From Herpetosiphonaceae bacterium (GTDB lineage: Bacteria; Chloroflexota; Chloroflexia; Chloroflexales; Kallotenuaceae), in the NCBI GenBank assembly GCA_036374795.1, contig DASUTC010000339.1, forward strand, positions 1-43,406: a DNA stretch of 43,406 nt, written 5' to 3'. Positions 13,898 through 29,898 of this stretch are shown here, in pieces; within the stretch, counting starts at the first letter, position 1; each line of letters begins with the position of its first letter. Both the position numbers and the translations under genes were made by a program. The notes under the pieces are model-generated. The model searched no databases and was not told where the DNA came from. It saw only the letters and a program-made list of their open reading frames with translations.

Positions 13898-13957
13898 AGA
13901 GACATTCCTTACGGGTGGGCGTAGTATCAGAAGTGTACCGTTAACAATAGTGAACGT

Positions 13958-15640
13958 CTAGATCTGCGGCAAACGCATTGTAAAACAGCTTCCCTCCCAG
14001 ATCTGCGAGGTAACGGTGATCGTGCCCCAGTGGTTGCGAACGATGTCCAGGGCGATCGGTAGCCCGATGCCGAGGCCGCGCCGCATACCGCCGGAGGTTT
14101 TGGTGGTAAACCCAGGCGCGAAGATCCGGTCGCGCAGATCTTCGGGAATGCCGTAGCCGTTATCGCCGATCCGCACGAGCGCCCACTGGCCCTCGCAGCC
14201 GACCTCGACGGTGATCTCCGGCTCGTCGCTGGTTTCGATCGCGTCGAGCGCGTTGTTGAGCAGATCCAGGCAGACCTGCTGTAACTGCGCTCGATTGCCG
14301 AGCACCACCGGCGATTCTTCCGGCAGACGGCAATGCAGCGCCACCTGTCGCTGCTGGGTCAGGCCCTTGACCACGGCCAGTGTATCGCCGACGACCTCGT
14401 TGAGCTTGACCGGCACTTTGGTCATGGCGCTGGTATGGCCGAAGTTCGACAGCCGCTTGACAAACTCGCCGACGCGCTGCGCCTCGGCGATGATCGCCTG
14501 CGCATCGCTGTCCGCCGCCTCCGGGAGCGTCGGGTCGCGCCGCAGCAGCGAGGCCAGCCCGATAATCGCGCTGATCGGATTCTGGAGCTCGTGCGCCAGA
14601 CCCTCGACCAGATCGCTGATCGCGCTGGAGCGCATCTGGTGGATATGCTGCACCAGCATACGCACCGATTGCTGCGCCTGCTGCTCACACTGGATCTGCT
14701 CGCGCAGCCAGACCATCAGCGCCGTCACGATCGCGCTGATCTGCTGGAGCGCCGCAGGCTCGACCACGCCAAACGGCAGCGGTGTCGTGTAATACAGCTC
14801 GGCCCAGCCGAGCGCCTCGTGCTCGTGGATAAAGGGTAGCACCAGCCCGGCCTCGCCCCGCTGCATCGTCGCCGCCGACCCGGCTGCTGGATCGGGCTGG
14901 CCCGCCGGATCGGGCTGCGGCCACTGCGCGACGACCGTCATCAGGCGCTCGTCCTCGATCGGGCCTGCATCTGGTGGCGGCGGCACCGCCTGATTGAAGC
15001 CAAGCCCATAGGCCAGCTCGGTCGGCAGCATCAGCGTTCCCGCCACGGCTTCGCTCGCCGTCACGATTTCTCCGAGCAGCGCCTGAAACGTATCGCGCAG
15101 GCTGGGCGCGAGCAGCGCCGCTTCGATGCCGCGCAGCATATGGCGCTGCGCCGCCATCTCATGCCGCGTGTGCGCTGCCACTTCGAGCTGCGCCAGGCCG
15201 AGCGCCGCGTAGCGTACCAGCGTCTCGGCCTGCCGCAGATGGGTGTCGCTAAACCGATTCGGCTGTGTGCTGAGCATCTCGACCCAGCCGCGCCGCATGC
15301 CGTGCAGCACCAGCGGCACGCCCAGCCAGCAGCGCAGATCGCCCTCGTGAATGTCCGGCTGGCTGTGCAGATCGGCGATTCGCGCGGCCTCGGCGGTGGT
15401 TTGAAAGATAAAATGGCGCGGCGATAGCGTCGACGGCAGCACCGCGTGGTCGGGATAGACCACGCGCAGGGCCGGGTGATCGTCATGGCCCAGCCAGACC
15501 GCCGCGACATCGTACGGCACGTAGAGCTGTAAGTCGAGCAGCAGTTGCTGGAGCTGTCGGTCAAGGATCTGGTCGAACGTGTCCGACTCCGATGCGGGCG
15601 ATGGTGAGGACGAGTCTTCCTGAAAGGTCTGTGAGATCAT
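13958..15640 (-). CDS. GAF-domain sensor histidine kinase
   Basis: A 560-residue soluble sensor kinase without membrane helices. A GAF domain occupies about 25-170 and a second, more divergent GAF-like region about 185-325. The H-box is DLVEGLAHELQNPISAIIG. The catalytic domain has the N-box LDLLNNALDAIE, G1 IGDNGYGIPEDL, the F-box IFAPGFTTK and G2 GLGIGLPIALDI. The ATG at 15640 overlaps the cutA stop (ATGA). A longer frame to 15676 is rejected for that reason. It probably phosphorylates the receiver-HD-GYP protein encoded next. Confidence 0.92.
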   Translation of the reverse strand: MISQTFQEDSSSPSPASESDTFDQILDRQLQQLLLDLQLYVPYDVAAVWLGHDDHPALRVVYPDHAVLPSTLSPRHFIFQTTAEAARIADLHSQPDIHEGDLRCWLGVPLVLHGMRRGWVEMLSTQPNRFSDTHLRQAETLVRYAALGLAQLEVAAHTRHEMAAQRHMLRGIEAALLAPSLRDTFQALLGEIVTASEAVAGTLMLPTELAYGLGFNQAVPPPPDAGPIEDERLMTVVAQWPQPDPAGQPDPAAGSAATMQRGEAGLVLPFIHEHEALGWAELYYTTPLPFGVVEPAALQQISAIVTALMVWLREQIQCEQQAQQSVRMLVQHIHQMRSSAISDLVEGLAHELQNPISAIIGLASLLRRDPTLPEAADSDAQAIIAEAQRVGEFVKRLSNFGHTSAMTKVPVKLNEVVGDTLAVVKGLTQQRQVALHCRLPEESPVVLGNRAQLQQVCLDLLNNALDAIETSDEPEITVEVGCEGQWALVRIGDNGYGIPEDLRDRIFAPGFTTKTSGGMRRGLGIGLPIALDIVRNHWGTITVTSQIWEGSCFTMRLPQI

Positions 15641-15972
15641 GGCTGGTCCTCCGGTCCCACCTGCATGGCTAGCCATTGTAGATACGCCGACGAGCCGCCG
15701 ACAACTGGCAGCGCCAGCACCTCAGGCGTCTCATATGAGTGCAGCTCCACGATCCGCTGTGTCAGTTGATCGAGATGCGTTGCGCTGGTCTTGATCAGCA
15801 GCAGCACCTCGGCATCATCCTGGATCGCCCCCTGCCAGCGATAGATCGACCGCAGGCCCGGCACAAGGTTCGCGCAGGCGGCCAGCCGCTCTTCTACCAG
15901 CGCCCGGCCAAGCTGCGCCGCCTCTTCGATCGTTGGTGCCGTCACCAGCACCACCAGCGTCGTATCGCTCAT
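15637..15972 (-). CDS. cutA: Divalent-cation tolerance protein CutA
   Basis: A 111-residue small trimeric ferredoxin-like protein. It shows the family core VLVTAPTIEEAAQLGRAL, the ACANLVPGLRSIYRWQGAIQ segment and the ending HSYETPEVLALPV. The family is linked to copper tolerance in enterobacteria, but its molecular role is unclear. The ATG at 15972 overlaps the preceding HAD gene by 4 nt, and its TGA overlaps the kinase start. That makes it the middle of a translationally coupled run, an unusual place for CutA. Confidence 0.93.
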   Translation of the reverse strand: MSDTTLVVLVTAPTIEEAAQLGRALVEERLAACANLVPGLRSIYRWQGAIQDDAEVLLLIKTSATHLDQLTQRIVELHSYETPEVLALPVVGGSSAYLQWLAMQVGPEDQP

Positions 15973-16631
15973 CGTCCAACCTGCCGTTGTTGCTGCTCGA
16001 TCCAGACTCGAAACGCGCCCAGCGATTGGCATAGCATCTGCGCCGCGCCGAAGTCGAGATCGCGTGTCAGCTCGTTGGGCACCGCCACTGCGAACATGCC
16101 CGCCGCCCGCGCGGCTGCGATCCCATGCGGCGCATCTTCCACCACCACGCACTGCGCGGGCGACACGTCCAGCAGCTCGGCGGCTCGTAAGAAAATATCC
16201 GGGGCGGGCTTGCCCCGTGTCACCGTATCGCCGGTGACAATCGCATCGAAGGCGTGCTCCAGCCCCAGCTCACGCAGCGCGATCGTCACATAGCGCTGGT
16301 GTCCCGATGTCGCCAGCGCCGTGCGCAGCCCAAGCCTGTGCATCGCCGCGACCGTCGCGCTCGCCTGCGGCATTGGCTGGAGCACGCCCGGCAGCGAGTC
16401 CAGAAAAAGCGCGTCGCGCTCTGCCATCACCTGCTCGACCGAGAGCGGCAGGCTCAACTCCTGGCGCACCAGCGCGGCGCTGTCGAGCAGCCGCAGGCCA
16501 AACATGCGATCGATCAGCTCCGGCTCAAGCACGCGATCGTAGCGCTCGACAAAGCGATGCCACGCTCTTTTTTGCAGCGGCTCGCTATCGGCCAGCAGCC
16601 CGTCGAGGTCGAAGAGCACCGCCGCGATCAT
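15969..16631 (-). CDS. HAD-superfamily hydrolase (beta-phosphoglucomutase-like)
   Basis: A 220-residue HAD phosphatase/phosphoglucomutase subfamily enzyme. Motif I is FDLDGLLADSEPL (nucleophile Asp8). A helical cap follows, then motif II ALATSGHQRY, motif III Lys in GKPAPDIFLRAAELL and motif IV VVVEDAPHGIAAARAAGM. It dephosphorylates a small phosphorylated metabolite or sugar; the substrate cannot be told. It has 4-nt overlaps with both neighbours (EamA transporter upstream, cutA downstream). The upstream in-frame extension to 16790 runs inside the transporter gene and is rejected. Confidence 0.92.
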   Translation of the reverse strand: MIAAVLFDLDGLLADSEPLQKRAWHRFVERYDRVLEPELIDRMFGLRLLDSAALVRQELSLPLSVEQVMAERDALFLDSLPGVLQPMPQASATVAAMHRLGLRTALATSGHQRYVTIALRELGLEHAFDAIVTGDTVTRGKPAPDIFLRAAELLDVSPAQCVVVEDAPHGIAAARAAGMFAVAVPNELTRDLDFGAAQMLCQSLGAFRVWIEQQQRQVGR

Positions 16632-17578
16632 CGCGCACCGTCCAGCATCACGTCGTCGGCGATCACCTGGGCCAGCTTGTCGGGTGACGCATTGCGGCTG
16701 AGCGAAACCTCGGCCACGATCACGCCCAGCAGCATCAGGCCGCCGCCGAGCCAGACCGCCGCCGTCAGCACCTCGCCGATCCACAGCCACGAGAAGAGCG
16801 CCGCAAAGACCGGCTCAAGCGCAAAAATCAACGCCGTATGCGTCGCCGTGGTGTAGCGTTGCAGCTTCAGTTGCAGCGCGAACACCAGCGCGGTCGCAAC
16901 CAATCCCAGAAACAGCGCGGCTCCCCAGACGCCCCAGGACGGCGCGGGAAGCGGCCAATCGCTCATGATCGCCGCGCCGGTTGCCAGCAGCGCCGCGACG
17001 ATCAACTGAACCGTGTTGATCGGCACGATCGGCAGCGTGGTTGCCCAGCGGCTAACCGCGACGATATGCATGGCGAACGCAAACGCGCAGACCAGCACCA
17101 GCAGGTCGCCCAAGCGCTGGGCGGGCGTCGCGTCCACGCCCACGGTACAGCCAAGCCACGGTATGCGGCAGCCCCACGAAAGAACTGCTAAGCCAACCAC
17201 GGCCAGCGCCACGCCGACGACCGCGCGCCGGGGCGGCTGCTGCCCAAAGCCCAGGCCAAGCAGCGGCACCAGCACCACGTTCAGCCCGGTGATGAATCCG
17301 GCCCGCGCCGGGCTGGTGTACTGAAGGCCGAGCGTCTGGCTGGCAAACCCGGCAAATAACAGAGCGCCCAGCAGCGCGCCGACCACTACGACCTGTCGGG
17401 TTAGCTCGGCCCGTCGCCGCGCCAGCGTCGGCAAGAAGACCGCTGCCGCGCATCCAAACCGCAGTGCGATCAGCGCCAATGCCGGAAACGTCGCCACCGC
17501 CTCGTGGACGATGGTAAACGTTGTGCCCCAGATAAGCGCGATCAATACCAGCAAAAGATCTGCCCGCCGTTGACTCAC
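16628..17578 (-). CDS. EamA-family (DMT) transporter
   Basis: A 316-residue inner-membrane protein of the drug/metabolite transporter superfamily with about ten hydrophobic helices in two EamA repeats. The first repeat starts LLLVLIALIWGTTFTIVHEA, and the second ends in LIFALEPVFAALFSWLWIGE, the family hallmark. The substrate is unknown; relatives export amino acids or other metabolites. The GTG at 17578 has GGGAG 7 nt upstream and is preferred over an ATG at 17596, which has none. It is the first gene of the transporter-HAD-cutA-kinase run. Confidence 0.9.
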   Translation of the reverse strand: MSQRRADLLLVLIALIWGTTFTIVHEAVATFPALALIALRFGCAAAVFLPTLARRRAELTRQVVVVGALLGALLFAGFASQTLGLQYTSPARAGFITGLNVVLVPLLGLGFGQQPPRRAVVGVALAVVGLAVLSWGCRIPWLGCTVGVDATPAQRLGDLLVLVCAFAFAMHIVAVSRWATTLPIVPINTVQLIVAALLATGAAIMSDWPLPAPSWGVWGAALFLGLVATALVFALQLKLQRYTTATHTALIFALEPVFAALFSWLWIGEVLTAAVWLGGGLMLLGVIVAEVSLSRNASPDKLAQVIADDVMLDGAR

Positions 17579-17704
17579 CCTACTGCTCCCAAACATGTGA
17601 CGATCACAGGCGGCACGCGATGGAAGAGATTGGCCTGCGGTCCTGCCGCAGGCTGATAGGGAAGATCGCCGCGTACATCCTCTAAACGTTCAACGATTGG
17701 CAGC

Positions 17705-17715: not shown

Positions 17716-18060
17716 TCAAACACGGGCTGGTTCGCGATACGCCGCGAGATCGGCCTCGTCGACGATCGGCATGAAGCGCGACATCTCGACCATCTTGAAG
17801 ATCTTCTGATGGTGCGGGCTGACATTGATCGCAAACAGCTTGTAGCCCGATTTGCGCGCCGCGACGACAAACTTGAGCAGCGCCGAGATTCCGGCTGAGT
17901 TGATAAAGTTGACCTGCGCGAAATCGAGCGCCGTGATCGGACGCATATCGCTGCACATCTGCTCAATCAATCCCGCCGAGATGGCGTCGATGCTGGGCAT
18001 GCTGATGCGCAAAACCGCCAGATCGCCTTGTTCTTCGCGTCGGATCGTGTGCTGAGCCAT
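17716..18060 (-). CDS. STAS-domain anti-sigma-factor antagonist
   Basis: A 114-residue single STAS domain like SpoIIAA/RsbV. The phosphorylatable serine lies in the conserved loop VNFINSAGISALL (Ser55). In partner switching, the unphosphorylated antagonist binds the HATPase anti-sigma or switch kinase and frees its target. A SpoIIE-type phosphatase and a short HATPase are encoded just upstream in the same orientation, so the three parts are together. AAGGA precedes the ATG at 8 nt. No sigma factor gene is in the window, so the final target is unknown. Confidence 0.9.
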   Translation of the reverse strand: MAQHTIRREEQGDLAVLRISMPSIDAISAGLIEQMCSDMRPITALDFAQVNFINSAGISALLKFVVAARKSGYKLFAINVSPHHQKIFKMVEMSRFMPIVDEADLAAYREPARV

Positions 18061-18162
18061 ATGAACATCCTTTCTATGGTAGCCAATACGCTTGCATAAA
18101 TGCGTTGGTTCGATCGCTGCCGCTCGTGCCGGTTCGGCAGACCATCCCGGCTCGATCGCGGC

Positions 18163-18588
18163 TTACTCCTCCGGCTTGCGGAAGATTCGTAAGGTCATAA
18201 CCGTGCCTTCGGCGGTGCTGGTCACTTCGCACTGATCGACCAGCGAGCTGATCAGATACATGCCGAAGCCGCGCAGCATTCCGGCGTCCAGGTTGTCTTC
18301 TTCGACCACCCGCCTGCTCCAGTCGATCCGCTCCACACCACCGCCGTGATCCGTCACGCGCACCTCAAGATGATCGCCGTTCACGCTGAACGACACATCC
18401 ACCGGAAGATGGCTCTGACGTTTGCTGCCGTGATCGATCGCGTTGTTGACGGCCTCGCTCACGGCCAGCTTCAAGTCCTCAATCCGCTCAGGGTCGAAGC
18501 CGAGCGTATCGCCAAGTTCCGCCGCGCTGGCCCGTACAACTCGCTCGAACGCCGGATCAGAAGGGATGGATAACGTTACACGATGCAT
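18163..18588 (-). CDS. RsbW-like HATPase (anti-sigma / switch kinase)
   Basis: A 141-residue GHKL ATPase of the anti-sigma serine kinase type. The N-box is KLAVSEAVNNAIDHGS, G1 is RVTDHGGGV and G2 is MLRGFGMYLISSLVD. It has no sensor or H-box. It should bind and phosphorylate the STAS protein encoded 102 bp downstream and sequester a sigma factor or another partner. GGAG lies 8 nt before the ATG. It starts 17 bp after the TPR gene, so it is probably co-transcribed with it. Confidence 0.9.
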   Translation of the reverse strand: MHRVTLSIPSDPAFERVVRASAAELGDTLGFDPERIEDLKLAVSEAVNNAIDHGSKRQSHLPVDVSFSVNGDHLEVRVTDHGGGVERIDWSRRVVEEDNLDAGMLRGFGMYLISSLVDQCEVTSTAEGTVMTLRIFRKPEE

Positions 18589-18605
18589 ACACTACGCTCC
18601 GACCA

Positions 18606-20153
18606 TTACGAAGATGAGGGCATGACTTGATGCGGCAATCGAGGGACGCGACCACCGCGCGCCATGAACCGATCGTAGCGCCGCAGGTAGGCCCGCCCGA
18701 CGGGGGTGTTGCCGGTTTGGAGATAACACGCTCCCAGGTAGTACAACGCCTGGGCATGGTTCGGCTGGGCTTTGATCACCTGCTCGAAGAGCGGGATCGC
18801 CCGCGCGGGCTCAAGCAGCTCCTTGTAGCAGGTGCCCAGCAGGAAGGCCGCCTCGATGTCCTGCGATTTTTGCTCAAGCACGGCCTCCAGCTCCACCGTC
18901 GCCAGATCGTGCCGTCCACGCCGAATGTAGATGCAGGCCAGATCGTAGCGCAGCGAGGCGGCGCGCGGCGTCAGCGTAATCGCCTGCTTCCACGCGGTAA
19001 TCGCCCAGTGCTCCTTGCCGATCACCAGATACATAAAGCCGAGCAAATAGAACGCGACCGAGTCGTCGCCGAGCAGGTGGGTGGCGCGCTCAAGCGCACG
19101 AGCCGCCGCCTGGGGCTTGCCCAGATCGTAGAGCAGCTTGCCCATCTGCACAAAGATCTGGCCCTCGGTCGGACGCTGCCGCGCGCACTCGTAGAGGATG
19201 GTGTAGGCCTGCTTCAGGCGCTTGCCCAGACGCAGCACCGCCGCGATGCGCAGCCGCGCGGCGACATAGAACGGGTCCTGCGGCGGAATATGCAGATATT
19301 CACGCACGGCCTCTTCCCAGCGCCGCCGCCGTGCCAGGAGGTTGCCCAGCAGAAAGCGCGCGCGATGCTCCTCCGGCTTCCATTCCAGCAGCGCGCGGTA
19401 GATCCGCTCGGCCTCTTCTTCCGCGCCCTGGTTTTTGAGATCGTCGGAGAGGCGATAGTACCACTGCGAGGTGTCGGCCTCGGTTTTGTTGACGAGCTCC
19501 TGCGGCTCCGATTCGGGCGAGATAAAGGTTGGCTCGACGCGCAGCGCCTCGGCAAAGCAGCGCTGCGCCAGCTCGTGCGCGCCGTGGCGCTGATGCATCA
19601 GGCCCATGTAGTAGAGCGGCTCGCCCGCCTGTGGCCGCACCTCGCGCGCCGAGGCATAGTGAATATAGGCCCGCACCGAGTCGTCGAGATGCTGGTAGCA
19701 GCGTCCGAGCGCGAAATGCGCCTCGTACAGGCCATCGTTGTGCTCCAGCGCCTCCTTGAAGGCCGCGATGGCCCGCTCGGTCTGGCCCATGGCCGCGAAG
19801 GCCACGCCGAGATTGTAGTGCGCCTCAGACAGCGACGGATCGGTGCGCACGGCCTCAAGGTACTCGCGCAGCGACGCATCCCAATCTTCGGCAAAGGCCC
19901 AGGCGTTGCCAATATAGAGATAAATAATCGCGCGCTCGCGGTCGGAGATAAGCGCGTGCTGCGTCCCATCGACATACGCCGCGATCAGCGCTGCTTTGAA
20001 ACGTTCTACGGCTTCCGGGTACTGCGCGCTGAGATAGGCGCGAATGCCTTGGGTAAAGGCCGTGCCCAGTTCTGAGCCGTCCATAAAGCGCTCGCTGCCC
20101 ACAAAGGTATCGAGGTCGAGCGGCATGAACACCAGCGGCTCGGAGGTAATCAT
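18606..20153 (-). CDS. Large tetratricopeptide-repeat protein
   Basis: A 515-residue protein built of about a dozen TPR units and without an enzymatic domain. Clear repeats include SEAHYNLGVAFAAMGQTERA, YEAHFALGRCYQHLDD and QALYYLGACYLQTGNTPVG. There is no signal peptide or membrane helix, so it is a cytoplasmic scaffold. Its place between the SpoIIE-type phosphatase and the RsbW-like kinase, with a further TPR domain on CheR, suggests it assembles chemosensory or partner-switch components; that is inference. AGGAG lies 7 nt before the ATG. Confidence 0.88.
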   Translation of the reverse strand: MITSEPLVFMPLDLDTFVGSERFMDGSELGTAFTQGIRAYLSAQYPEAVERFKAALIAAYVDGTQHALISDRERAIIYLYIGNAWAFAEDWDASLREYLEAVRTDPSLSEAHYNLGVAFAAMGQTERAIAAFKEALEHNDGLYEAHFALGRCYQHLDDSVRAYIHYASAREVRPQAGEPLYYMGLMHQRHGAHELAQRCFAEALRVEPTFISPESEPQELVNKTEADTSQWYYRLSDDLKNQGAEEEAERIYRALLEWKPEEHRARFLLGNLLARRRRWEEAVREYLHIPPQDPFYVAARLRIAAVLRLGKRLKQAYTILYECARQRPTEGQIFVQMGKLLYDLGKPQAAARALERATHLLGDDSVAFYLLGFMYLVIGKEHWAITAWKQAITLTPRAASLRYDLACIYIRRGRHDLATVELEAVLEQKSQDIEAAFLLGTCYKELLEPARAIPLFEQVIKAQPNHAQALYYLGACYLQTGNTPVGRAYLRRYDRFMARGGRVPRLPHQVMPSSS

Positions 20154-20251
20154 CTATGGCTCCTGCAACGTAGAACGGGGAGCTGGCCGGTCGATCGCGC
20201 GCTCATAACGGTTGGCACGTCGTGTCACGCGCGAGTACCGGCTCCACACAG

Positions 20252-21325
20252 CTATACACATGCATCCATTTCTGCGCGTACCGTCGTGCGGTACTCCTCC
20301 AGCGTCAATCGGAGCTGGGCCAGCAGCTCACGGCTCAGGCCGCGCCCATGACGAGCCTGCACGATCTTGCCGATCTGCGGCAGCGCCGCCTGCCACTCCT
20401 GCACATCCGCCGGGATCTGCCCGATCTCGACCCACAGCGCCGCCGCGCCCATCTCGCCCATCACATCGACGCTGATGTTGCGCAGTTCGGCGTTCAGATC
20501 GGGCAGCCGTCGGCGCATCACCACCATCGTCATGTCGTCGGCCAGCGTGTTGCCGCTCCATGTCTTGACCGTGTTGAGGATCGTCGCCATCATCGAGCGC
20601 GGACGCTGCTGGTGGCTGCGCAGCAGCAGCGATTGCAGCCGGGTAAAGCCGTACATCCGCTCGCGGGGATCGCTGGCCTCGGTGATACCGTCGGTATAGA
20701 GCAGCGCCGTCTCGCCGGGAGCCAGCGTCGCGGTGATCGTCTCGTACTCGGCGTCGGGGTCGATCCCCAGTGGCAGGCCCGTCACCTCAAGCTCATGGAC
20801 ATCATGGCCGATCAGCACCGGGAAGTTATGCCCGGCGTTGGCGATATGCAGCGTGCCGGTATGAATCTCGGCGTGGACGTAGAGCATCGTCACCATGCCG
20901 TGGGGCATCTCGCTGATCAGCGCGCGGTTGAGCGCGGCCAGCGTCGCGCCCGGCGCGAGCTTTTCGCGGGCGATCTGCCGAAAGAGCGTGCGCGCCACGG
21001 CCATGCGCAGCGCCGCCGCCAGGCCGTGCCCTGAGACATCGCCGATCATCAGGCCGTGCCAGTTGTCGTCCAGCGCCGGAAAATCGTAGAGATCGCCGCC
21101 GAGCTCGCTCGCGGGCAGCGAGGCTGCGGCCAGCTCCCATTTATGCAAGCGCGGCACCGTCTGCAACAGCAAGCCCTGCTGTAGCTCGCGCGCCATGCGC
21201 AGATCTTGAGCTAATTCAGGGTGATCGCCGGGTGTTGCCCGTCGCGGCCTCCGCGCAACCACCGCGGGGCGTCCCGTCAGGCGTTGATGGGGAGAGCGAT
21301 GGCTCACGAGACTTTTCCACGACAT
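20252..21325 (-). CDS. SpoIIE/RsbU-type PP2C serine phosphatase
   Basis: A 357-residue protein whose residues about 45-265 are a PP2C-like SpoIIE phosphatase domain. Metal-binding motifs are ASELGGDLYDF, MIGDVSGHGLAAAL, LLYTDGITEASD and ADDMTMVVMRR. The first 40 residues are basic, with no receiver or PAS domain. About 85 C-terminal residues beyond the catalytic domain have no assignment. It should dephosphorylate the STAS antagonist encoded downstream. ATGs lie at 21334 and 21325; the second is better placed relative to AGAGG. It begins 17 bp after cheR, linking the phosphatase to the chemosensory genes. Confidence 0.9.
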   Translation of the reverse strand: MSWKSLVSHRSPHQRLTGRPAVVARRPRRATPGDHPELAQDLRMARELQQGLLLQTVPRLHKWELAAASLPASELGGDLYDFPALDDNWHGLMIGDVSGHGLAAALRMAVARTLFRQIAREKLAPGATLAALNRALISEMPHGMVTMLYVHAEIHTGTLHIANAGHNFPVLIGHDVHELEVTGLPLGIDPDAEYETITATLAPGETALLYTDGITEASDPRERMYGFTRLQSLLLRSHQQRPRSMMATILNTVKTWSGNTLADDMTMVVMRRRLPDLNAELRNISVDVMGEMGAAALWVEIGQIPADVQEWQAALPQIGKIVQARHGRGLSRELLAQLRLTLEEYRTTVRAEMDACV

Positions 21326-21342
21326 GCAAGGCATCCTCTAAA

Positions 21343-22863
21343 CTAGCGGTGTTGGAATCGATCGGCTTCGAGATGTTGCAAAAACCGCTGACATGTTTCA
21401 CGTAGCCAGGCGACGGTCACGCCATCCAGGACCTCAGCCTCGTCCAGGTCGGCCAGCTTGCGCAGCGCGCTGCGGTACTCGCGCTCGGCCAGGTCGAGCC
21501 GCTGCTGGCTGCGGTAGGCGTTCGCCAGATGGAACGACGGCAGCGGTGCCTGTGGCAGCAGATAGCGCACGCGCTCAAGATGGATCACCGCCTCGTCCCA
21601 GCGCTCCTGGTTGGCGTAGAGCATTCCCAGCAGCAGATGCGCGTCATGGACCAGCACATCGCACTCGATCGCGCGCTGCGCCTCGGTCGCCGCCTGCTCC
21701 CAGTCGCCGCGATTGGCATGAATGCGGGCGATGGCCGCCAGCGCGTGCGGGTAGGCTGGCTCGTCGGCGCGCACTCGTCGCAGCGTGTGCAGCGCATCGT
21801 CGAGCTGTCCGGCTTGCAGGTGGGCCAGGCCCTGATCCAGAAATGCCTGACTCGTCGGCGCGGGCGGGCGGGACGGTAGCCGCGCTGCCGTACGAGGCCG
21901 CGCTTCGCGCTGGGGGGTGCGCTCACGGGGTGGTGCCTCGAAGGGCGCTGGCTGCTCGCGCAGGAGCTTCTGGCTTTCGCGCGCTGCGGCGCGCTCGGTT
22001 CGCTCGCGAAGCTGGTGCTGATGCCGTGCCCGCAGTGCGCCCGTGCGCGGCAGCGGCTTGCGATAGACAAATGCTCCCGCCAGTTCAACCGTCTCAAAGC
22101 GGTCGAAGATACGCCACAGAGTCTCGGAGAAGCCCAGGAAAAGATACCCACCCGGTCGTAGGACCTCGAAGAAGCGAGCCATTAACGCCCGGCACACATC
22201 CACCGAGAAGTAGATCGTCACGTTCTGGCAGAAGATAATATCGAGCGCGCGCGCCCATTTCGGCACGGGCGTGTGCAGGTTATGCTGCTCGAAGTGGATC
22301 AGCGCGCGCACCTCAGGCCGCACCAGATGGTAGCCCTGATCCGGCGTGAAGTAGCGCGTGAACTCTTCCTGCTTGACATTCATCAGCGTGCGGCCCCGGT
22401 AGCGCCCAAGCTGCGCTTTCGCCAGCGCCTGGGTGCTGATGTCGGTAGCATGGATCTCCACCTGGCGCGGCAACGGCTCGCCGAGCGTCTGAAGGATCGA
22501 GATCGCCAGCGAGTACGGCTCCTCGCCGGTAGCGCAGCCAGCGCTCCAGCAGCGGAGCGGCATGGCCGCTGTGCGCTCGCGGTGCAGCGCAGGCAAAATA
22601 TGCTCGCGCAGCGCGCGATGATGCGCCGGAGTGCGGAAGAACTGCGTCTCATGGTTGACGACCAGCTCCGTCAGCCGGTGCAGCTCGGCGGCGTCGATCT
22701 GTTGCAGATAGGTGTGTGTCTCGTCGAGGCCAAGCGTTTCCATGCGCACCGCGATGGCGCTCTCAAGCGATCGATGGCGGCTGCCGTCCATCAAAAAGCC
22801 GCTGTACTCGGCGATGCTGCCGGCGAGCGTTTGAAACTGGGCGGTGGAGAGAGTCGGTCGCAT
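21343..22863 (-). CDS. cheR: CheR methyltransferase with C-terminal TPR domain
   Basis: A 506-residue S-adenosylmethionine-dependent MCP glutamate methyltransferase. The N-terminal helical domain (1-75) contains NHETQFFRTP. The SAM motif is WSAGCATGEEPYSLAISI (about 106-123), and DIIFCQNVTIYF is the usual CheR strand. Residues about 280-345 are a basic, Arg/Pro-rich linker. From about 350 there are three or four TPR units (FLDQGLAHLQAGQLDDALHT and following). CheR-TPR fusions occur in alternative chemosensory systems. AAGGAG lies 8 nt before the ATG, and the start overlaps the cheB stop by 1 nt (TGATG). Confidence 0.95.
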   Translation of the reverse strand: MRPTLSTAQFQTLAGSIAEYSGFLMDGSRHRSLESAIAVRMETLGLDETHTYLQQIDAAELHRLTELVVNHETQFFRTPAHHRALREHILPALHRERTAAMPLRCWSAGCATGEEPYSLAISILQTLGEPLPRQVEIHATDISTQALAKAQLGRYRGRTLMNVKQEEFTRYFTPDQGYHLVRPEVRALIHFEQHNLHTPVPKWARALDIIFCQNVTIYFSVDVCRALMARFFEVLRPGGYLFLGFSETLWRIFDRFETVELAGAFVYRKPLPRTGALRARHQHQLRERTERAAARESQKLLREQPAPFEAPPRERTPQREARPRTAARLPSRPPAPTSQAFLDQGLAHLQAGQLDDALHTLRRVRADEPAYPHALAAIARIHANRGDWEQAATEAQRAIECDVLVHDAHLLLGMLYANQERWDEAVIHLERVRYLLPQAPLPSFHLANAYRSQQRLDLAEREYRSALRKLADLDEAEVLDGVTVAWLRETCQRFLQHLEADRFQHR

Positions 22864-24293
22864 CAGCGTTGCTCCTTGACCACGTTCTCGCGCAGCAAGA
22901 CCTGCAAGCGGCCCGCGATGGCCTCTGGACTCAGCACCTCGTGGACTACCTGCGCCTCAATCGCGGCGCGCGGCATGCCAAAGACGATGCAGGTTTCGCT
23001 GTTCTGAGCGATGGTATAGCCGCCCTCGCGGTAGATCGCGCCCATGCCCGACGCCCCATCGCGGCCCATGCCGGTCAGCAGCACGCCGATAGCGCGGGTG
23101 CCGTAGGCCTCCGCCGCGCGCTGCATCGTCACATCCACCGAGGGCCGCTGGAGCAGCGCGGGCTGCGACGAGAGGCTCAGCACGCCGTCGCCGTCGATCA
23201 GCAGGTGCATGTTGTCGGGCGCGACAAAGACTCGTCCGGGCAGCGCTATATCGCCCGACTTCGCAAGCTGAACCGGCATCGGAGTGGATGCGGCCAGCCA
23301 GTCGACCATGCCGCGCGTAAAGCCGTCCGCAATATGCTGCACCAGCAGGACCGAGGCAGGCAGGTTGACCGGCAACTGGCGCAAGATCTGCTGCACCACG
23401 CGCGGCCCGCCAGTCGACGCGCCGATCACGATCACCTTGTTGGCCGCGCCCATCGTCGAGCGCCGCGTGACGATCGGCGGCGGGTTCACCGGAGCGCTGG
23501 CAGGCGTTTTTGCCGCCGGGCTGGTCGTCGGGGGCGTAGCGGGTGTTTTCGCTGGCGGCGTGCTCGGCGGCGCAGATCCGAGCGGACGGGAGCCGCGCAG
23601 CCTGCGCTGGGCGGCATCGCCGGGCGTAGAGGTGCTCGGCGGCGCAGATCCGAGCGGACGGGAGCCGCGCAGCCTGCGCTGGGCGGCATCGCCGGGCGCC
23701 AGCGAGAGCGTTCCCCGTGTGCGGCGCAGGGAGTCCGTGCCGGATAATGGGCGCGAGCCGCGCGCGCGGCGCAGCGCGTCGCCGCCGCCGAGCGGACGAG
23801 AGCCGCGAAGTCGCCGCTGGGCCGCATCGCTGCTGTCGGCTTCCGACGTGTCGCGCATGGAGCGCCGCCGACCACGGAGATGCGTCACGACGCGCACGCG
23901 CGACAAGACTTTGATCCGCTTGATCAGCGCGGCGCGGGCCTGCTCCAGACCACCGGGATCGCTGCTGGAGGGCTTTTCCATCACATCGAGCGCGCCCAGG
24001 CCAAGCATGCGGAAGGTGATGTCGATATCGAAGCGCGAGAGCGAGGCCGTCAGCACCAGGATCGGCGTCGGGTAGTACGCCATGATGTGCTCGGTAGTCT
24101 GCAAGCCGTCCATCACCGGCATGCGCACATCCATCGTAATCACATCGGGCCGCAGCGCTACCACCTGCTCGATCGCAGCCTGCCCATCACGCGCCGTCCC
24201 GACGACCTCGATCTCAGGATCGGACGTGAGCAGCGCCGTCAGTGCGCGACGCATCAGCGCAGAGTCATCGACAATCAACACACGGATAGGCAT
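22863..24293 (-). CDS. cheB: Chemotaxis methylesterase/deamidase CheB with expanded linker
   Basis: A 476-residue response regulator enzyme that demethylates or deamidates receptors. The receiver spans 1-125 (D10/D11, acceptor D55 in VITMDVRMP, KP lysine 107). The methylesterase domain covers about 284-470 with catalytic Ser293 (IGASTGGP), His320 (LLVQHIADGF) and Asp412 (TGMGRDGA). Between them lies an unusually long linker of about 145 residues. It has five copies of a basic RRLRGSRPLG-type motif and a Pro/Thr-rich tail; two copies are encoded by near-identical 72-bp units. The enzyme should be active. The linker may bind a partner or be a slippage product. Confidence 0.95.
   Translation of the reverse strand: MPIRVLIVDDSALMRRALTALLTSDPEIEVVGTARDGQAAIEQVVALRPDVITMDVRMPVMDGLQTTEHIMAYYPTPILVLTASLSRFDIDITFRMLGLGALDVMEKPSSSDPGGLEQARAALIKRIKVLSRVRVVTHLRGRRRSMRDTSEADSSDAAQRRLRGSRPLGGGDALRRARGSRPLSGTDSLRRTRGTLSLAPGDAAQRRLRGSRPLGSAPPSTSTPGDAAQRRLRGSRPLGSAPPSTPPAKTPATPPTTSPAAKTPASAPVNPPPIVTRRSTMGAANKVIVIGASTGGPRVVQQILRQLPVNLPASVLLVQHIADGFTRGMVDWLAASTPMPVQLAKSGDIALPGRVFVAPDNMHLLIDGDGVLSLSSQPALLQRPSVDVTMQRAAEAYGTRAIGVLLTGMGRDGASGMGAIYREGGYTIAQNSETCIVFGMPRAAIEAQVVHEVLSPEAIAGRLQVLLRENVVKEQR
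23550..23693 (-). repeat. Tandem 72-bp repeat inside cheB
   Basis: Two adjacent, nearly identical 72-bp in-frame units encode 24 residues each, starting GDAAQRRLRGSRPLGSAPPS. They extend an older degenerate series of the same basic motif toward the receiver side. High identity suggests a recent duplication and possible length variation between strains. Confidence 0.9.
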
Positions 24294-24400
24294 AGCGGTA
24301 TCGCAACTCCGAAGCGATCGAATCCAGGGACGCGGACGAAAGAACCGAGAACTAAGAACCAGGGAGAACTCAGAACTCGAAACTTGAAACTCATGAATAG
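24294..24400. repeat. Spacer with degenerate heptamer repeats (cheY-cheB)
   Basis: On the minus strand, units such as GTTCTTA, GTTCTCG and GTTCTTT follow one another at 7-nt spacing between about 24336 and 24391. It is the same family as the 27.4-kb spacer. No promoter or gene is visible. Confidence 0.55.
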
Positions 24401-24760
24401 TTATACGCCGAGCAGTACTTTGACCCGGTTGGGCAGATCCAGCAGATCGAGATCCTTGTTGAGGTAATCATCGACACCTGCCTCAAAGCCCGCGCGCCGG
24501 TCGTCCATCGAGGTCAGCATGATAATCGGCAGATCTTCCAGCGCCGGTTGTTCGCGCAGGCGGCGGCAGACCTCGTAGCCATCAATGCCCGGCATCTGAA
24601 CGTCCAGCACGATCAGGTCGGGCATAACATCGTGGACCCGATCCAGCCCGTCTTCGCCGCTATGCGCGACCTGGACTTCGTAGCCGTACATTTCCAGCCG
24701 CATTTTGACAATGTCGGTAACGAGTCTGCTATCGTCGACAATCAGGATGGTGGCGCTCAT
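24401..24760 (-). CDS. cheY: CheY-like single-domain response regulator
   Basis: A 119-residue stand-alone receiver. The acidic pair lies in LIVDDSRLV, the acceptor Asp in DLIVLDVQMPG, the Thr/Ser in IIMLTSMDD and the lysine in DDYLNKDLD. Asp follows the lysine instead of the usual Pro. There is no output domain. GGAGG lies 6 nt before the ATG at 24760. It sits between cheA and cheB, so CheA is the expected phosphodonor. With no flagellar genes nearby, its target (type IV pili, gliding or another output) is not visible. Confidence 0.92.
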   Translation of the reverse strand: MSATILIVDDSRLVTDIVKMRLEMYGYEVQVAHSGEDGLDRVHDVMPDLIVLDVQMPGIDGYEVCRRLREQPALEDLPIIMLTSMDDRRAGFEAGVDDYLNKDLDLLDLPNRVKVLLGV

Positions 24761-24967
24761 GCAAACCTCCAGCATGCGATCGTGCCGATATCGCATGCGC
24801 TACGTATCACTTGGTGGCTGTAAGAACTGTCTCTCTATGTGCGGCGTGGATAATCGCTCAACCCGGTTCATGACTGTTGTGCAGCATACGAGAATCTCCA
24901 GCACGCGGGTATAGTACTGGAGCCTACACTTTTGTCGCCGTTTGATAGATACGGAAAGGGACGGCTA

Positions 24968-27334
24968 TCACGGCGCTGCGCCCACCAGATCGCGCACGGC
25001 AGCCAGCAGATTCGATTGATCGAACTGCGATTTGACGATGTAGGCTTGCGCTCCCGCGACGATGCCCTGGCGCTTGTGCTCGTCTGAGTGCAGGCTGGTG
25101 ACGATGATCACGGGGATGTGTGTCAGCGCCGGATCGGTGCGGATGTTGGAGGTCAGGCCAAAGCCGTCCATCCGAGGCATCTCGACATCGCTGACGACCA
25201 GATCGAAGCGCTGATCGGCGCGCAGTTTGTCCAGCGCGTCCTGCCCATCGACCGCTGTTGTGACGTCGTAGCCGGCGGATTGCAGGATCGAGCGCAGCAG
25301 CTCGCGGGTCGTAAACGAGTCGTCGGTGATTAGCAGCCGATGCCTGCGCGCGGCCTTCTTGCTGGCGAAGCTTGCTCTGCGCGCCCGTCGGGTGCGGCTG
25401 AGGAGGCCCTGAGCGCTCAGCACCACGGCGAGCGAGCCGTCAGGCAGCGGCGCGATGCCGGAGACGAGCGGATGATTGGGAAAGAGCGGGCCAAGCGGCT
25501 TGACCACGACCTCACGCTCGTCTACCAGCCGATCGACCAGCACCGCCGTCGGGCGCGTCGTGCCGATCAGCAGTGCGTGGTCGCGCGCGAGCTTAACGTC
25601 GTCCTGCGGCAGATCGAGCAGATCGGCCAGCGTCACCAGCGGCACCAGCCTGCCGTCGATCTGGATCAGCGGCTGCCCTTCGACGCGATGGACCGCCTCG
25701 CGCTCCAGCCGCAGTAGGCTCTGGCAGCTACGCGAGGGCAGCGCCCAGAGCTGCTTGCCCGCCTCTACCAGTAGCACCTGCGAGGTCATCAGCGACACCG
25801 GCAGAATCAGCGAGATCGTCGTGCCCCGGCCAGGCGTGCTGTCCACGGCGACCTGACCACCAAGCTCGACCATGCGCGAGCGAACCACGTCCATGCCGAC
25901 GCCGCGCCCCGATACGTCGGTGATGATCGGACTCATCGAGAAGCCCGGCATGAAGATCAGATCGATCGCCTCGGCATCGTTGAGCATCGCCGCCGATTGC
26001 TCGTCGAGCAGCCCTTTGCGAACCGCCGCCGCCCGCAGCGCCGTCGGGTTCATGCCCCGCCCATCGTCGATCACGTCGATGCGGATCTGCCCGTGCTCGG
26101 CGGTCGCCGCGACGATGACTCGCCCGGTCGGGGGCTTTCCGGCGCTCGCCCGCTCCTCAGCCGACTCCAGGCCGTGGTCGAGGGCGTTGCGCACCATATG
26201 CAGCAGCGGATCGCTCAGCGCATCAAGCACTTTGCGGTCGGCCTCGGTTTCTTCGCCTTGCAGCTCAAGCTCGACTTGCTTGTTGAGCGTGCGGGCCAGC
26301 TCGCGGACGGCGCGCGGCAGCGTGGCGAAGATCGTCGCCACCGGCACCAGTCGCGCCGCGAACACCTCGGCCTCCAGCTCGTCGACCAGTAGCGCCTGCG
26401 CGGCGGTATGCCGGGCGTACATATCGTGCTGAGAGCGAACGATCTGCCCAAGCTCGCCGGATCGAGTCTGCAGCTCGTTGATCCGGTGCGTGACGCTCTG
26501 GCGCTGCGACGGCGATAGACGCGCGTGACGCAGCTCGCCTTCAAGCGCCTGAAGCGTGCGCTGCTGCTGCGAGATCAGCGACGTGAGCGTTTGTAAGCTT
26601 TGGAGATGCAGCGTATCTTCCTGCTGCCCCACCATCAGCTCGCCCGCGACCGCCAGCAGCCGGTCGAGCCGATCGACGCGCACCCGCACCGTGCCGCGCT
26701 GCGCTCGTGGGCTCGCCGCTGTCGCCGTGGGTGTCAATGGTGCGGGGGGCGCTGTGGGCGCTGCCGCCGGTGCTGTCGGCGCTGACACCGCTGCCGTGGG
26801 CCGCGTGCTGGCCGGTGGCGCCTGTGTCGCCGCTGTCGTCGGTGTCGTCTCGGCTGCGGCTACGGGCGGCTCGCCTGCGGGCGGCTGCTCGTCCGCAGGC
26901 AATGCATCGACCGGATCGGGCGCGGGGCTGTTTGGAGCCGGATCTGGGAGCGGCTGACCGCTGGCCGCGCCCTCAAGCCGGGCGATTAGCGCCGTGGTAT
27001 CGATCTCCACGCTGCGCTGCTCGCTGGCCGCCGTGGCAAGCGTCAGCAAGGTATCGTTGGCTTTGAGCAGCAGATCGTTGAGCGTGGCCGAGAGCGCGAT
27101 GTTGCCATCGCGCAGCGCCCCCAGCAGGCTCTCCATCGCGTGCGCGACATTGGCAACCGCGCCGAAGCCCAGGAGCCGCGACGAGCCTTTGACGGTATGC
27201 GCCGCCCGAAAGACGCCATCAAGCGTCGCCCGATCGCCGGGATCGTTTTCGAGCGCCAGCAATCCTTCCGCAATCACGCGGACATTGTCGATGGTTTCTT
27301 CGCGGAATTGGGCGTAGAACGCGCTGAGATCCAT
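24968..27334 (-). CDS. cheA: Hybrid chemotaxis histidine kinase CheA-receiver
   Basis: A 788-residue kinase. The Hpt domain (about 1-115) carries the phosphorylated His46 in FRAAHTVKGSSRLLGF. There is no clear CheY/CheB-binding P2; instead an Ala/Pro/Thr-rich linker covers about 118-213. Dimerisation helices (about 218-340) are followed by the HATPase domain with N-box MVRNALDHGLES, G1 VIDDGRGMNP and G2 GRGVGMDVVRSRM. A CheW-like P5 domain (about 515-650) is followed by a C-terminal receiver (DLVVSDVEMPRMDG). The layout matches hybrid CheA of type IV pilus or alternative systems. No ribosome site is obvious. Confidence 0.95.
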   Translation of the reverse strand: MDLSAFYAQFREETIDNVRVIAEGLLALENDPGDRATLDGVFRAAHTVKGSSRLLGFGAVANVAHAMESLLGALRDGNIALSATLNDLLLKANDTLLTLATAASEQRSVEIDTTALIARLEGAASGQPLPDPAPNSPAPDPVDALPADEQPPAGEPPVAAAETTPTTAATQAPPASTRPTAAVSAPTAPAAAPTAPPAPLTPTATAASPRAQRGTVRVRVDRLDRLLAVAGELMVGQQEDTLHLQSLQTLTSLISQQQRTLQALEGELRHARLSPSQRQSVTHRINELQTRSGELGQIVRSQHDMYARHTAAQALLVDELEAEVFAARLVPVATIFATLPRAVRELARTLNKQVELELQGEETEADRKVLDALSDPLLHMVRNALDHGLESAEERASAGKPPTGRVIVAATAEHGQIRIDVIDDGRGMNPTALRAAAVRKGLLDEQSAAMLNDAEAIDLIFMPGFSMSPIITDVSGRGVGMDVVRSRMVELGGQVAVDSTPGRGTTISLILPVSLMTSQVLLVEAGKQLWALPSRSCQSLLRLEREAVHRVEGQPLIQIDGRLVPLVTLADLLDLPQDDVKLARDHALLIGTTRPTAVLVDRLVDEREVVVKPLGPLFPNHPLVSGIAPLPDGSLAVVLSAQGLLSRTRRARRASFASKKAARRHRLLITDDSFTTRELLRSILQSAGYDVTTAVDGQDALDKLRADQRFDLVVSDVEMPRMDGFGLTSNIRTDPALTHIPVIIVTSLHSDEHKRQGIVAGAQAYIVKSQFDQSNLLAAVRDLVGAAP

Positions 27335-27344
27335 AGGTCAAAGA

Positions 27345-27437
27345 ATAAAGCGAGAACAGAGAACAAAGAACAACGGAACAAAGAACAAAACGAGAATAGA
27401 GAACAGAGAGCAAAGAACAAAACGAGAAAGGAACCAA
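27345..27437. repeat. Heptamer repeat tract upstream of cheA
   Basis: On the minus strand, about ten units of GTTCTTT/GTTCTCT/GTTCTCG follow one another with 7-nt spacing, ending 10 bp before the cheA start. In mRNA this would give a pyrimidine-rich leader right before translation starts, where a ribosome site would normally be. Confidence 0.75.
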
Positions 27438-27509
27438 TTGCTGTTTAATGACTTCTTTTTCTGTGATTCATGTCAGCTATGCGAGAAACATAAAGGGCTT
27501 GTTCGATTC

Positions 27510-27538
27510 GGGATAGTGCCGGTATATACAAAAATCAA
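27510..27538 (-). promoter_or_regulatory. Candidate promoter for cheA
   Basis: TTGATT and TATCCC are separated by 17 nt on the minus strand. They would give a roughly 170-nt leader containing the heptamer tract. It follows the mcp terminator-like hairpin, so cheA could be transcribed separately. Confidence 0.35.
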
Positions 27539-27591
27539 GAACAAAGAACAAAGGATACGAGCATAGGCTCTGCTCTTTGTTCTTTGTTCTT
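27537..27591 (-). terminator. 17-bp perfect hairpin of heptamer repeats after mcp
   Basis: AAGAACAAAGAACAAAG (27537-27553) and its exact complement (27575-27591) flank a 21-nt loop, 13 bp after the mcp stop. On the minus strand it is followed by GATTTTTG. The stem is AT-rich, so it may be a weak terminator or attenuator between mcp and cheA. Confidence 0.55.
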
Positions 27592-27603
27592 TGCGCTTCT
27601 CTG

Positions 27604-29088
27604 CTACACGCTACTCGTCAGGCCGTGCAGCCGCTCGGCAATCGCCGTCAGCGTTGCCGCCGCCTCGGCCATCTGCCGCGAGCCTGCCGCAGTCTGCCGC
27701 GATACCTCGGCGACATCGCGCATCGTCTCGACGACCTGCTCGCTGGCCGTCTGCTGCTGCGAGGTTGCCAGGCTGATCTCCTGCGACGACTGGACCGTTC
27801 GCTCGGCCATCATCACGATCGTATCCATCACCTGACCGGCGCGATTCGCCAGCAGCGCGCCGCGCTCGACCTCCTTAACGCCCTCCTCGGTCGCCATGAC
27901 CGCCGACGAGGTTGCGGCCTGGATCTCGGCGACGACGCTCTTGACCTCTTTGGCGGCGGCGATCGTGCGGTTAGCGAGATTCTTGACCTCGGCGGCCACC
28001 ACCGCGAAGCGCCGCCCGTACTCGCCCGCGCCTGCGGCCTCGATCGCGGCGTTCAGCGACAGCAGATGCGTCTCATCCGAAATATCGTCGATCAGATCGA
28101 TGATCTCGCCGATCTGCTGCGAGCGCTCGCCCAGCGCCAGAATGCGGGTTGCAACATCCTGCACCTTGCCTTTGATGCGCTCCATCGCGGCGACGCTCTC
28201 GTCCACGGCGCTCTGGCCCTGGCTGATATTTTCGAGCGTCGCGCTGGCGGCATCGCTGACCTGCTCCGCCGATTGCGCGATCTGGCGCGAGGTATAGCCC
28301 AGCTCCTCGATCGTCGATGTCACCTCGGCCACCGCCGACGCCTGCTCGGTCGCGCCGCTGGCCTGCTGCTGTGAGGTCGCCGACATCTCGGAGGCGGCAG
28401 CCGAAAGCTCGGACGCCAGCTCGATCTGCTGCGCGTTCTTTTCGAGCAGCATCTTATTGGTCTGCAAGAGCTCCTGCGCCCAGGTGCGCGCCTTGGCCGA
28501 GCTGTTGTCCAGCGAGCTGGTCGAGACGGTGATCGTCATCGTGACGACAAGAAACGTGAGCACGTAGTTGAGCGTGCTAAACAGGAGATTGAGCATCTCG
28601 CTCTCAACTCGTCGCGGCACGATCACGCCGAACGCCTCCAGCACAGCCAGCGCCACGTAGCACAGCAGGACGATTACGCCCATCCGCATGCTGTCGCCGA
28701 TGCCGCTCATCAGCCCGGCCAGGATAATCGGCAGCACGTAGTAGACGGGAACCGGCCCGGTGATGCCGTTATACGCCCAGATCTCGATCGTGATCGCGAT
28801 CATCAGGTAGATCAGACTGTAGCGTCCGGCCCGCATGATCTGGTTGCGAAACGCCAGCAGCGGTACCGGCATACCGGCGACAACTGCGATCAGCGAAACC
28901 CACAGCGGCCAGAGCAGGTTCGGCTCGTGGGTCTGGAGCCAGACCAGCAGGATCGCCACGGCCATGAGCCCAAAGCCAGCTATCCCGCCCAGCCCGATCG
29001 CTTGAACCAGCGGGCGGTAGCGGGCGGTGTCGTCGGTATCATGCGCCGAAACATCAGGTACCAGGCGTTGTACAATCGACAGGTTCAT
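27604..29088 (-). CDS. Methyl-accepting chemotaxis protein with multi-helix membrane domain
   Basis: A 494-residue receptor. After a 30-residue cytoplasmic head, six hydrophobic helices (about 31-50, 57-80, 90-107, 113-130, 134-153, 168-190) have only short loops, so there is no classical periplasmic ligand domain. No HAMP is evident: helix 6 runs straight into the coiled coil. The signalling tip (about 336-375) reads [20 protein letters not shown] and [15 protein letters not shown], close to the MCP consensus. It probably senses a membrane state or small hydrophobic ligand, or receives input from another protein. Its start overlaps the cheW stop by 4 nt. Confidence 0.93.
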
Positions 29089-29450
29089 GGAGCATCGTAT
29101 CCAATCTGAAGCGCGAGTTGCACCAGGTCAACCAACGGCATTAATTCGGTATCGTCAAGAATGAGCCCACATACGGCTGGATGGGCCTGCCCTGCGAGCC
29201 AGGCCGGAAGCTGGAACCGCGGCAGCGCCTCGCGCAGATCGGCGCGGCGCACGCGAAACGCGACATCTCGCTCGGTGCCAGCGACGACCAGCGCGTACTG
29301 CTCGTCGGCGGCGGTCGTCGCTCCCAGCAGATCGGCCAGCCCGATCAGCGGTTGCTCCGCGCCCGCCCGCTGTAGCTCGCGCACTGTCCGGCGCGGCACG
29401 GCATACTGCTGCCCGCCCGCTGCCACGATGATCAATTGCTCATCGTGCAT
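29085..29450 (-). CDS. cheW: Short CheW-like coupling protein
   Basis: A 121-residue CheW-fold protein beginning [19 protein letters not shown]. It contains the weakly conserved [11 protein letters not shown] strand and the ending [15 protein letters not shown]. It is shorter and more diverged than the first CheW, lacking part of the second beta-barrel. It might couple the mcp encoded next to CheA, or modulate that coupling. It overlaps the upstream cheW by 11 nt and the mcp start by 4 nt, so all three are translationally coupled. Identification rests on fold-like pattern plus context. Confidence 0.8.
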
Positions 29451-29898
29451 CGTGCTCTGCCGTGATCGTCGCGAAGATTGCCGGCAGATCGAGCAGCGCG
29501 ACCGGCTGATCATCGTATGTGACCAGACCGGAGAGATATTGCGCCTGCGCGGCTGGCAGCGACGATGGCAGCGGCTCGACCGCCCCGTCGTCGATGTAGA
29601 CGATGTCGGCAACCGCATCGCCGATGATGCCCGCCTGGATCGCGCCCTGCTCCACGACGATAATCCGCGTGCTGCGTGTCGGCAGCGGCTTGCCGATGCC
29701 CAGCAGCGAGCGCACGTCGAGCACGGGCAGAATCGCCCCCCGGTGATGGAGCATGCCGATCACCGTCTGCGGCGTGCCCGGAATTGGCGTGGGCGTGCGC
29801 CAGCGCAGCACCTCGCGCACGACATCCATCGACAGGCCGTAGTGCTCGTCCGCAAGTTTACATAGCAAGAAGCGTATCGTCTCAGTAGCTACCAGCAT
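29440..29898 (-). CDS. cheW: Chemotaxis coupling protein CheW
   Basis: A 152-residue CheW scaffold joining receptor and CheA. Typical elements are FLLCKLADEHYGLSMDVVREV, GMLHHRGAILPVLDVRSLLG and the closing SGLVTYDDQPVALLDLPAIF. The ATG at 29898 gives the usual N-terminus. A GTG 6 nt earlier and a longer frame to 29961 exist, but no clear Shine-Dalgarno decides. It is the first gene of the long minus-strand chemosensory locus, and a good promoter lies 35-63 bp upstream. Confidence 0.92.
   Translation of the reverse strand: MLVATETIRFLLCKLADEHYGLSMDVVREVLRWRTPTPIPGTPQTVIGMLHHRGAILPVLDVRSLLGIGKPLPTRSTRIIVVEQGAIQAGIIGDAVADIVYIDDGAVEPLPSSLPAAQAQYLSGLVTYDDQPVALLDLPAIFATITAEHDAR

Follow-up and report, generated by a model that had tools for sequence, protein, structure and literature searches.

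Genes of a combined chemosensory and partner-switch block

This report concerns a block of genes at positions 17716-29898, on the minus strand, of a 43,406-nucleotide stretch of DNA from a Herpetosiphonaceae bacterium of the order Chloroflexales (GenBank assembly GCA_036374795.1, contig DASUTC010000339.1), hereafter called the window. In the order of transcription, re-annotation from the sequence finds cheW, a second cheW, mcp, cheA with a receiver domain (REC), cheY, cheB and cheR-TPR, followed by genes for a PP2C phosphatase, a TPR protein, an RsbW-like kinase and a STAS protein. The genes for a chemosensory array are followed directly by those for a partner switch (PP2C, RsbW-like kinase and STAS protein), and a functional tie between the two modules is well supported by the comparative evidence presented below. 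The re-annotation and Pfam searches agree with an earlier, first-pass annotation of this DNA in every gene, in the single strand and in the coordinates, and likewise find no motility gene in the block. The features are as follows:

29440-29898, minus strand: cheW, first coupling protein (Pfam CheW, 4.9e-33; start ATG at 29898)
29085-29450, minus strand: second cheW, divergent (Pfam CheW just at the cut-off, 23.5 bits; 11-bp overlap with the first cheW)
27604-29088, minus strand: mcp, chemoreceptor with about six transmembrane helices (MCPsignal, 4.2e-37; transmembrane profile)
24968-27334, minus strand: cheA with a C-terminal receiver (Hpt-dimer-HATPase-CheW-REC by Pfam domains)
24401-24796, minus strand: cheY, single receiver domain (Pfam REC, 5e-27)
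22863-24293, minus strand: cheB, receiver plus methylesterase, with repeats in the linker (Pfam CheB, 1e-60)
21343-22863, minus strand: cheR-TPR (Pfam CheR, 2.1e-50, plus TPR)
20252-21325, minus strand: SpoIIE/RsbU-type PP2C phosphatase (Pfam SpoIIE, 3.4e-51)
18606-20153, minus strand: TPR protein with an N-terminal LDLDTFxGSERFM motif (Pfam TPR), candidate joint of both modules
18163-18588, minus strand: RsbW-like serine kinase (HATPase_c_2, 7.2e-26; Protein Data Bank RsbW 6m36, E 1e-14)
17716-18060, minus strand: STAS antagonist (Pfam STAS, 6.3e-9; serine in FINSAGIS)

The genes are closely packed. The mcp start lies inside an ATGA overlap with cheW, and cheB shares 1 bp with cheR. For the PP2C gene the second methionine codon (21325) is the most likely start, with a well-placed AGAGG upstream and the same start in the closest orthologs. 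With this start the gap between cheR and the phosphatase gene is 17 bp, the distance given in the first-pass annotation. The 269-bp gap between mcp and cheA holds a terminator-like stem (27559-27575), of a kind for which similar matches arise by chance; the front of the block, upstream of this gap, could be a separate transcript.

Conservation of the block within and beyond Chloroflexales

Orthologs of the PP2C protein (E 1e-74 or better, mostly near full length) are present in 43 of the 60 relatives searched, and a class-wide search locates them in 63 genomes belonging to this order. We read the neighborhood of this ortholog in 40 order-level relatives. The identical nine-gene order mcp, cheA, cheY, cheB, cheR, PP2C, TPR, RsbW, STAS, on one strand, recurs in 32 of these, and five more are collinear as far as the contig end. 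Together these genomes span families f1 through f4, and the conservation of the nine-gene order exceeds chance by far. The junctions are operon-like, with 4-bp overlaps common at cheB-cheR, TPR-RsbW and RsbW-STAS, and with cheR-PP2C gaps mostly shorter than 70 bp. Because flanking genes vary between families, the conserved unit is the block and not the region around it.

The window continues downstream of the block (12386-17596, minus strand) with genes for an EamA transporter, a histidine kinase with a GAF domain and a phosphodiesterase-like protein of receiver-GAF-HD architecture; in family f1, which holds the nearest relatives, STAS is likewise followed by an EamA gene. In many genomes of family f4 (L084:16780-19821; L069, L086, L100, L157) the block is followed by genes for a protein resembling malate/lactate dehydrogenase, for a single receiver and for a larger protein that bears a receiver; these genes may extend the block.

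Outside the order, one genome from a different family of the class (G087) has the same gene order as the window. In four others (G082, G083, G086 and G089, families f5/f8) the modules are permuted and still adjacent: RsbW-STAS-PP2C-TPR precedes cheW-cheW-cheA-cheY-(cheB)-cheR, with cheB detected in G086 and G089. The first-pass annotation had staked its proposal on this gene order recurring in related genomes, and that gene order indeed spans Chloroflexales, and the same genes reappear in a different arrangement in further families of this class. Among 400 genomes sampled from the phylum, the TPR protein was found only within this class.

In a tree of CheA proteins, the linked CheAs of f5/f8 form one clade and those of Chloroflexales (the window included) and G087 form another, and the tree does not settle how the two clades relate to the remaining CheA paralogs. 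The tree was considered as proof of an ancestral linkage and set aside, as the relevant fork is the one that lacks resolution. The linkage may be ancestral with later rearrangement, or it may have two separate origins; both histories favor a functional tie. Since the block is kept together in four families and reordered in further ones, array and switch very probably belong to one pathway.

Natural losses suggest a switch that depends on the array

Genomes that have lost one or both modules indicate which depends on the other. The presence of a chemosensory system was judged by CheW-domain searches on chosen genomes. In the tested genomes of group g5, and in G046 and G050, there are no CheW-domain proteins and the PP2C ortholog is also absent, as are RsbW orthologs in the members checked. 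The three genomes of one genus, g16 (G038, G045, G047), keep mcp-cheA-cheY-cheB-cheR-TPR, but PP2C, RsbW and STAS are gone from their block; their best RsbW match elsewhere is a paralog of 34-37% identity that also occurs in other genomes. G004 carries an unrelated, divergent chemosensory cluster, and orthologs of the switch and TPR proteins are all absent. In G046 both modules are gone, and the TPR protein lies beside the malate-dehydrogenase-like and receiver genes that many f4 genomes carry at the edge of the block. Among the examined genomes there is no case of the switch orthologs (PP2C-RsbW-STAS) without a chemosensory system. This pattern, which consists of a small number of independent losses, suggests that the switch acts as a branch dependent on the chemosensory system, and not the reverse.

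The TPR protein as candidate joint

The first-pass annotation had suggested that the shared TPR elements form the physical link between the modules. In per-protein FastTree trees, we compared distances to families f1-f3 between the three g16 sequences and 19 sisters from f4 that retain the switch. For the TPR protein the g16 distance is 0.82-0.84, against a sister mean of 0.593 (standard deviation 0.038, maximum 0.660), which is a ratio of 1.39-1.42 and lies beyond all sisters. The same ratio is 1.07-1.15 for g16 CheA, CheB, CheR and the chemoreceptor, and 0.97-1.05 for CheY. Identities had seemed lower for g16 CheY, and a relaxed CheY was considered; the tree value indicates no acceleration.

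The changes are unevenly placed. Genomes with the switch share 249 invariant TPR residues. All three g16 sequences depart from 30 of these, and the changes affect 26 of 157 positions in the N-terminal 280 residues versus 4 of 92 in the remainder (Fisher p 0.004). Even the permuted clusters of other families carry the N-terminal LDLDTFxGSERFM motif almost unchanged; in g16 it is broken, reading LDPGMYSGSERLM. The TPR protein is therefore the likely joint of array and switch, as judged from sequence comparison.

Several observations weigh against a tight coupling of the two modules or against this role of the TPR protein. Two of the 40 neighborhoods (G024, G015) lack STAS next to RsbW, and another (G005) is split, with mcp-cheA about 0.54 Mb away from cheY through STAS. 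The modules of G085 lie on different contigs. In G053, counted among the 32 genomes with identical order, rsbW (L069, about 4127-4957) is interrupted by a few hundred bases, possibly through an insertion or decay of the kinase, with the remainder of the block intact. The TPR protein survives without the switch in g16, and without either module in G046, and so is not dedicated solely to the switch. Furthermore, G046, left with the TPR protein alone, keeps most of the motif (LDLDIF), and the rate test represents one loss event that the three g16 sequences share. For these last two reasons the TPR divergence is suggestive and falls short of proof. Finally, the PP2C protein has no receiver domain, by Pfam and in its structural model, and hence no obvious phosphotransfer step connects it to CheA. 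Thus, the suggested physical link gains from the faster divergence of the TPR protein where the switch is lost, and loses from its retention without the switch. The wording of the first-pass annotation that the array is "genetically fused" to the switch is too strong, as the genes are adjacent, and are apart in G005 and G085.

The chemosensory half

The block holds a complete MCP-CheW-CheA-CheB-CheR core by Pfam. Wuichet and Zhulin placed all Chloroflexi chemosensory pathways in the alternative-function (ACF) class, as cited in PMC3447774. One trait associated with that class (PMC3447774), CheR fused to TPR, is present. The multidomain response-regulator output typical of ACF pathways is missing, in that CheY has a single domain and PP2C has no REC. 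This trait is typical and not strict, since some ACF pathways use single-domain regulators (PMC3447774). An ACF-like array is the best reading.

CheY is better kept than the remaining Che proteins, at 69-78% in families f2-f4. The second cheW is also found upstream of cheA in f5/f8 relatives. In the receptor, Pfam and the transmembrane profile reveal neither a periplasmic ligand domain nor HAMP, and a Pfam search of the transmembrane segments yields no match above cut-off. The N-terminus of the receptor (mcp, 27604-29088) carries a GG..GPL...FLIPIV.AGL motif and is helical in an AlphaFold2 model. No known type of membrane sensor could be assigned, the sole lead being a weak Foldseek match to the diguanylate cyclase ImcA (E 0.13), and homology of the six-helix domain to the membrane region of outgroup PP2C proteins is unsupported (hhalign probability 15%). 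The CheB linker (residues about 160-240, between receiver and esterase) contains several copies of an arginine-rich repeat, RRLRGSRPL(G). The same genome (C254) has a second, divergent chemosensory cluster (L143) whose CheA is 32% identical over 718 residues; in the 20 kb read there, neither the switch proteins nor the TPR protein has a match.

The phosphatase, kinase and STAS protein

The metal-binding motifs of the PP2C protein (GGD, GDVSG, TDG, DD) are conserved. In an AlphaFold2 model (mean pLDDT 84) the first 33 residues are disordered and are followed by a linker helix, by the PP2C fold and by a confidently modeled C-terminal three-helix domain; the best fold matches are RssB, Rv1364c and SiaA. 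The three-helix domain has a conserved signature, GRGLxREL..Q.R...E.YR. We considered whether this C-terminus might be a truncated RsbW (HATPase), but BLASTP gives no match and the model is a three-helix bundle. In the otherwise poorly conserved disordered tail, the pattern [ST]-hydrophobic-hydrophobic-x-H occurs in 38 of 39 orthologs, versus 0.46 expected from shuffles that take no account of relatedness, and it is likely to be a docking motif. PP2C proteins outside Chloroflexales (L136, L137, L138, L139, L140) are membrane-anchored by 3-5 predicted transmembrane helices, where those of Chloroflexales have the disordered, motif-bearing tail instead.

The N, G1 and G2 boxes of the kinase are intact (N-box SEAVNNAIDHG, DHGGG, RGFGMYLI). 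The STAS protein has a serine at the SpoIIAA/RsbV phosphosite position, within FINSAGIS, and serine occupies this position in at least 95% of 38 aligned rows. Against the NCBIfam equivalog models the kinase falls short for both RsbW (81 bits, cut-off 145) and SpoIIAB (70 bits, cut-off 135), and the STAS protein is likewise below the SpoIIAA cut-off. They are thus relatives within these families and not RsbW, SpoIIAB or SpoIIAA themselves, a small correction to the first-pass labels.

A proposed pathway and its alternatives

The reading we favor, and consider somewhat probable, is that the block encodes one signaling pathway in which the output of the array includes the partner switch, most likely by acting through the PP2C side. 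The six-helix receptor, two CheW proteins and hybrid CheA would form the array, which CheB and CheR-TPR would adapt. The RsbW-like kinase would phosphorylate STAS, PP2C would remove the phosphate, and the state of STAS would constitute the signal. The array may act on the PP2C side through phosphorylated CheY, through the TPR protein encoded beside PP2C, or both. PP2C is the most likely point of input because it has no receiver or sensor of its own but does have a disordered tail with a motif and, at the C-terminus, an additional helical domain; the lack of a receiver rules out action of CheA on it by simple phosphotransfer. That CheA signaling sets the phosphorylation state of STAS, as first proposed, is plausible. 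The direction from array to switch, the contact points and the target are hypothetical.

Gliding and Tad pili have been reported for Chloroflexales, and cryo-electron tomography of a species of this order reveals chemoreceptor-like arrays (PMC7332563), making surface behavior a natural candidate output. The output is probably of this kind, with Tad pili, gliding and aggregation as candidates, and not a SigB-type sigma factor; by analogy with HmpV, SypA or SiaC a non-sigma STAS output is the more likely. A more specific and tentative proposal is that the array signals to the Ser/Thr switch via a dedicated TPR protein, with no receiver-fused phosphatase, and that phosphorylated STAS is a second array output in addition to CheY and controls the gliding that multicellular filaments of Chloroflexales perform with Tad pili.

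Signals could instead flow in reverse, with STAS in one phosphorylation state binding receptor, CheA or TPR protein to tune gain or localization. The PP2C proteins of f5, f8 and f6, with their own 3-5 predicted membrane helices, could be sensors, and an action of STAS on a chemoreceptor exists as an untested proposal for Campylobacterota (PMC9239204). However, PP2C of Chloroflexales lacks a membrane region and hence a sensor of its own, and the losses in g16 mark the switch as the dispensable part while Che is retained. We judge reverse flow to be unlikely.

Slimmer still are the prospects that the modules regulate surface behavior side by side and are linked for co-expression only, with no direct signaling. 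Their separability in G005 and G085, the completeness of RsbW, PP2C and STAS as a stand-alone switch, and the generic scaffold nature of TPR proteins all suit this explanation, but it fits poorly with a gene order that is permuted yet still linked in other families, with the one-way dependence of switch on Che, and with divergence specific to the TPR protein.

A canonical sigma switch, in which the RsbW-like protein holds a sigma factor that dephosphorylated STAS releases under CheA control, is very improbable: the closest solved relative of the kinase is indeed RsbW (6m36, E 1e-14) and the genome has several sigma-70 family genes, but the kinase scores below the equivalog cut-offs, the block in the window contains no sigma gene, none was noticed in the blocks of relatives, and no SigB/F/G member in the genome exceeds the curated TIGR02980 cut-off, lower-scoring matches presumably being other sigma-70 proteins. 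The sigma-factor control that the first-pass annotation envisaged therefore finds no support.

Relation to known systems

No description of a combined chemosensory and partner-switch block was found in the literature searched, which was open-licence and partial. The same three protein families, with conserved active sites, make up RsbU-RsbW-RsbV and SpoIIE-SpoIIAB-SpoIIAA of Bacillus; the block differs in having no linked sigma gene and in scoring below the equivalog cut-offs. SiaABCD of Pseudomonas aeruginosa is likewise a PP2C/kinase/STAS switch, SiaA is a close match to the PP2C fold here, and its output, as described in PMC9239204, is a c-di-GMP enzyme and not a sigma factor. SiaABCD has no chemosensory array, and the present block has no cyclase. 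In the HptB-HsbR-HsbA and RssB-type REC-PP2C systems of Pseudomonas, histidine-kinase signaling also feeds into a PP2C/kinase/STAS switch that affects swarming (PMC8256260). The phosphatase domain of RssB is a top structural match, but HsbR/RssB has a receiver fused to the phosphatase, which the PP2C of the block lacks.

ACF systems with CheR-TPR (Wsp-like superfamily) resemble the block in CheR-TPR and in the absence of flagella: CheR-TPR occurs in about 80% of the Chloroflexi genomes examined, where flagellar genes are absent (PMC3447774). Most ACF outputs reported in that paper are response regulators joined to output domains, phosphatases included, whereas the block has a REC-less PP2C with its own kinase and STAS protein; a text search of PMC3447774 finds no mention of STAS or sigma.

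The closest precedent, by architecture and published descriptions, is the cyanobacterial Hmp system (hmpA-F) with HmpUVW of Nostoc punctiforme, and its citation in the first-pass annotation was apt. There too a Che-like system and a PP2C/kinase/STAS switch serve one surface-motility program in a filamentous gliding bacterium, and the STAS protein itself, not a sigma factor, is thought to be the output (PMC6495340, PMC8256260). Hmp and HmpUVW are reported as two separately named systems, whereas here a single block holds both modules and also encodes CheR-TPR and a dedicated TPR protein; and the studied Chloroflexales have Tad pili, not type IV pili, in contrast to the Hmp case. Arrays and partner switches are usually studied apart, and Hmp with HmpUVW hints that they cooperate, not how. 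Across the order Chloroflexales array and switch stay linked, and outside the order they recur in a different arrangement, with natural losses pointing to the TPR protein as the joint. The block thus offers a concrete candidate pathway, with short motifs, for motility control in gliding, pilus-bearing Chloroflexales, which are filamentous and non-flagellated.

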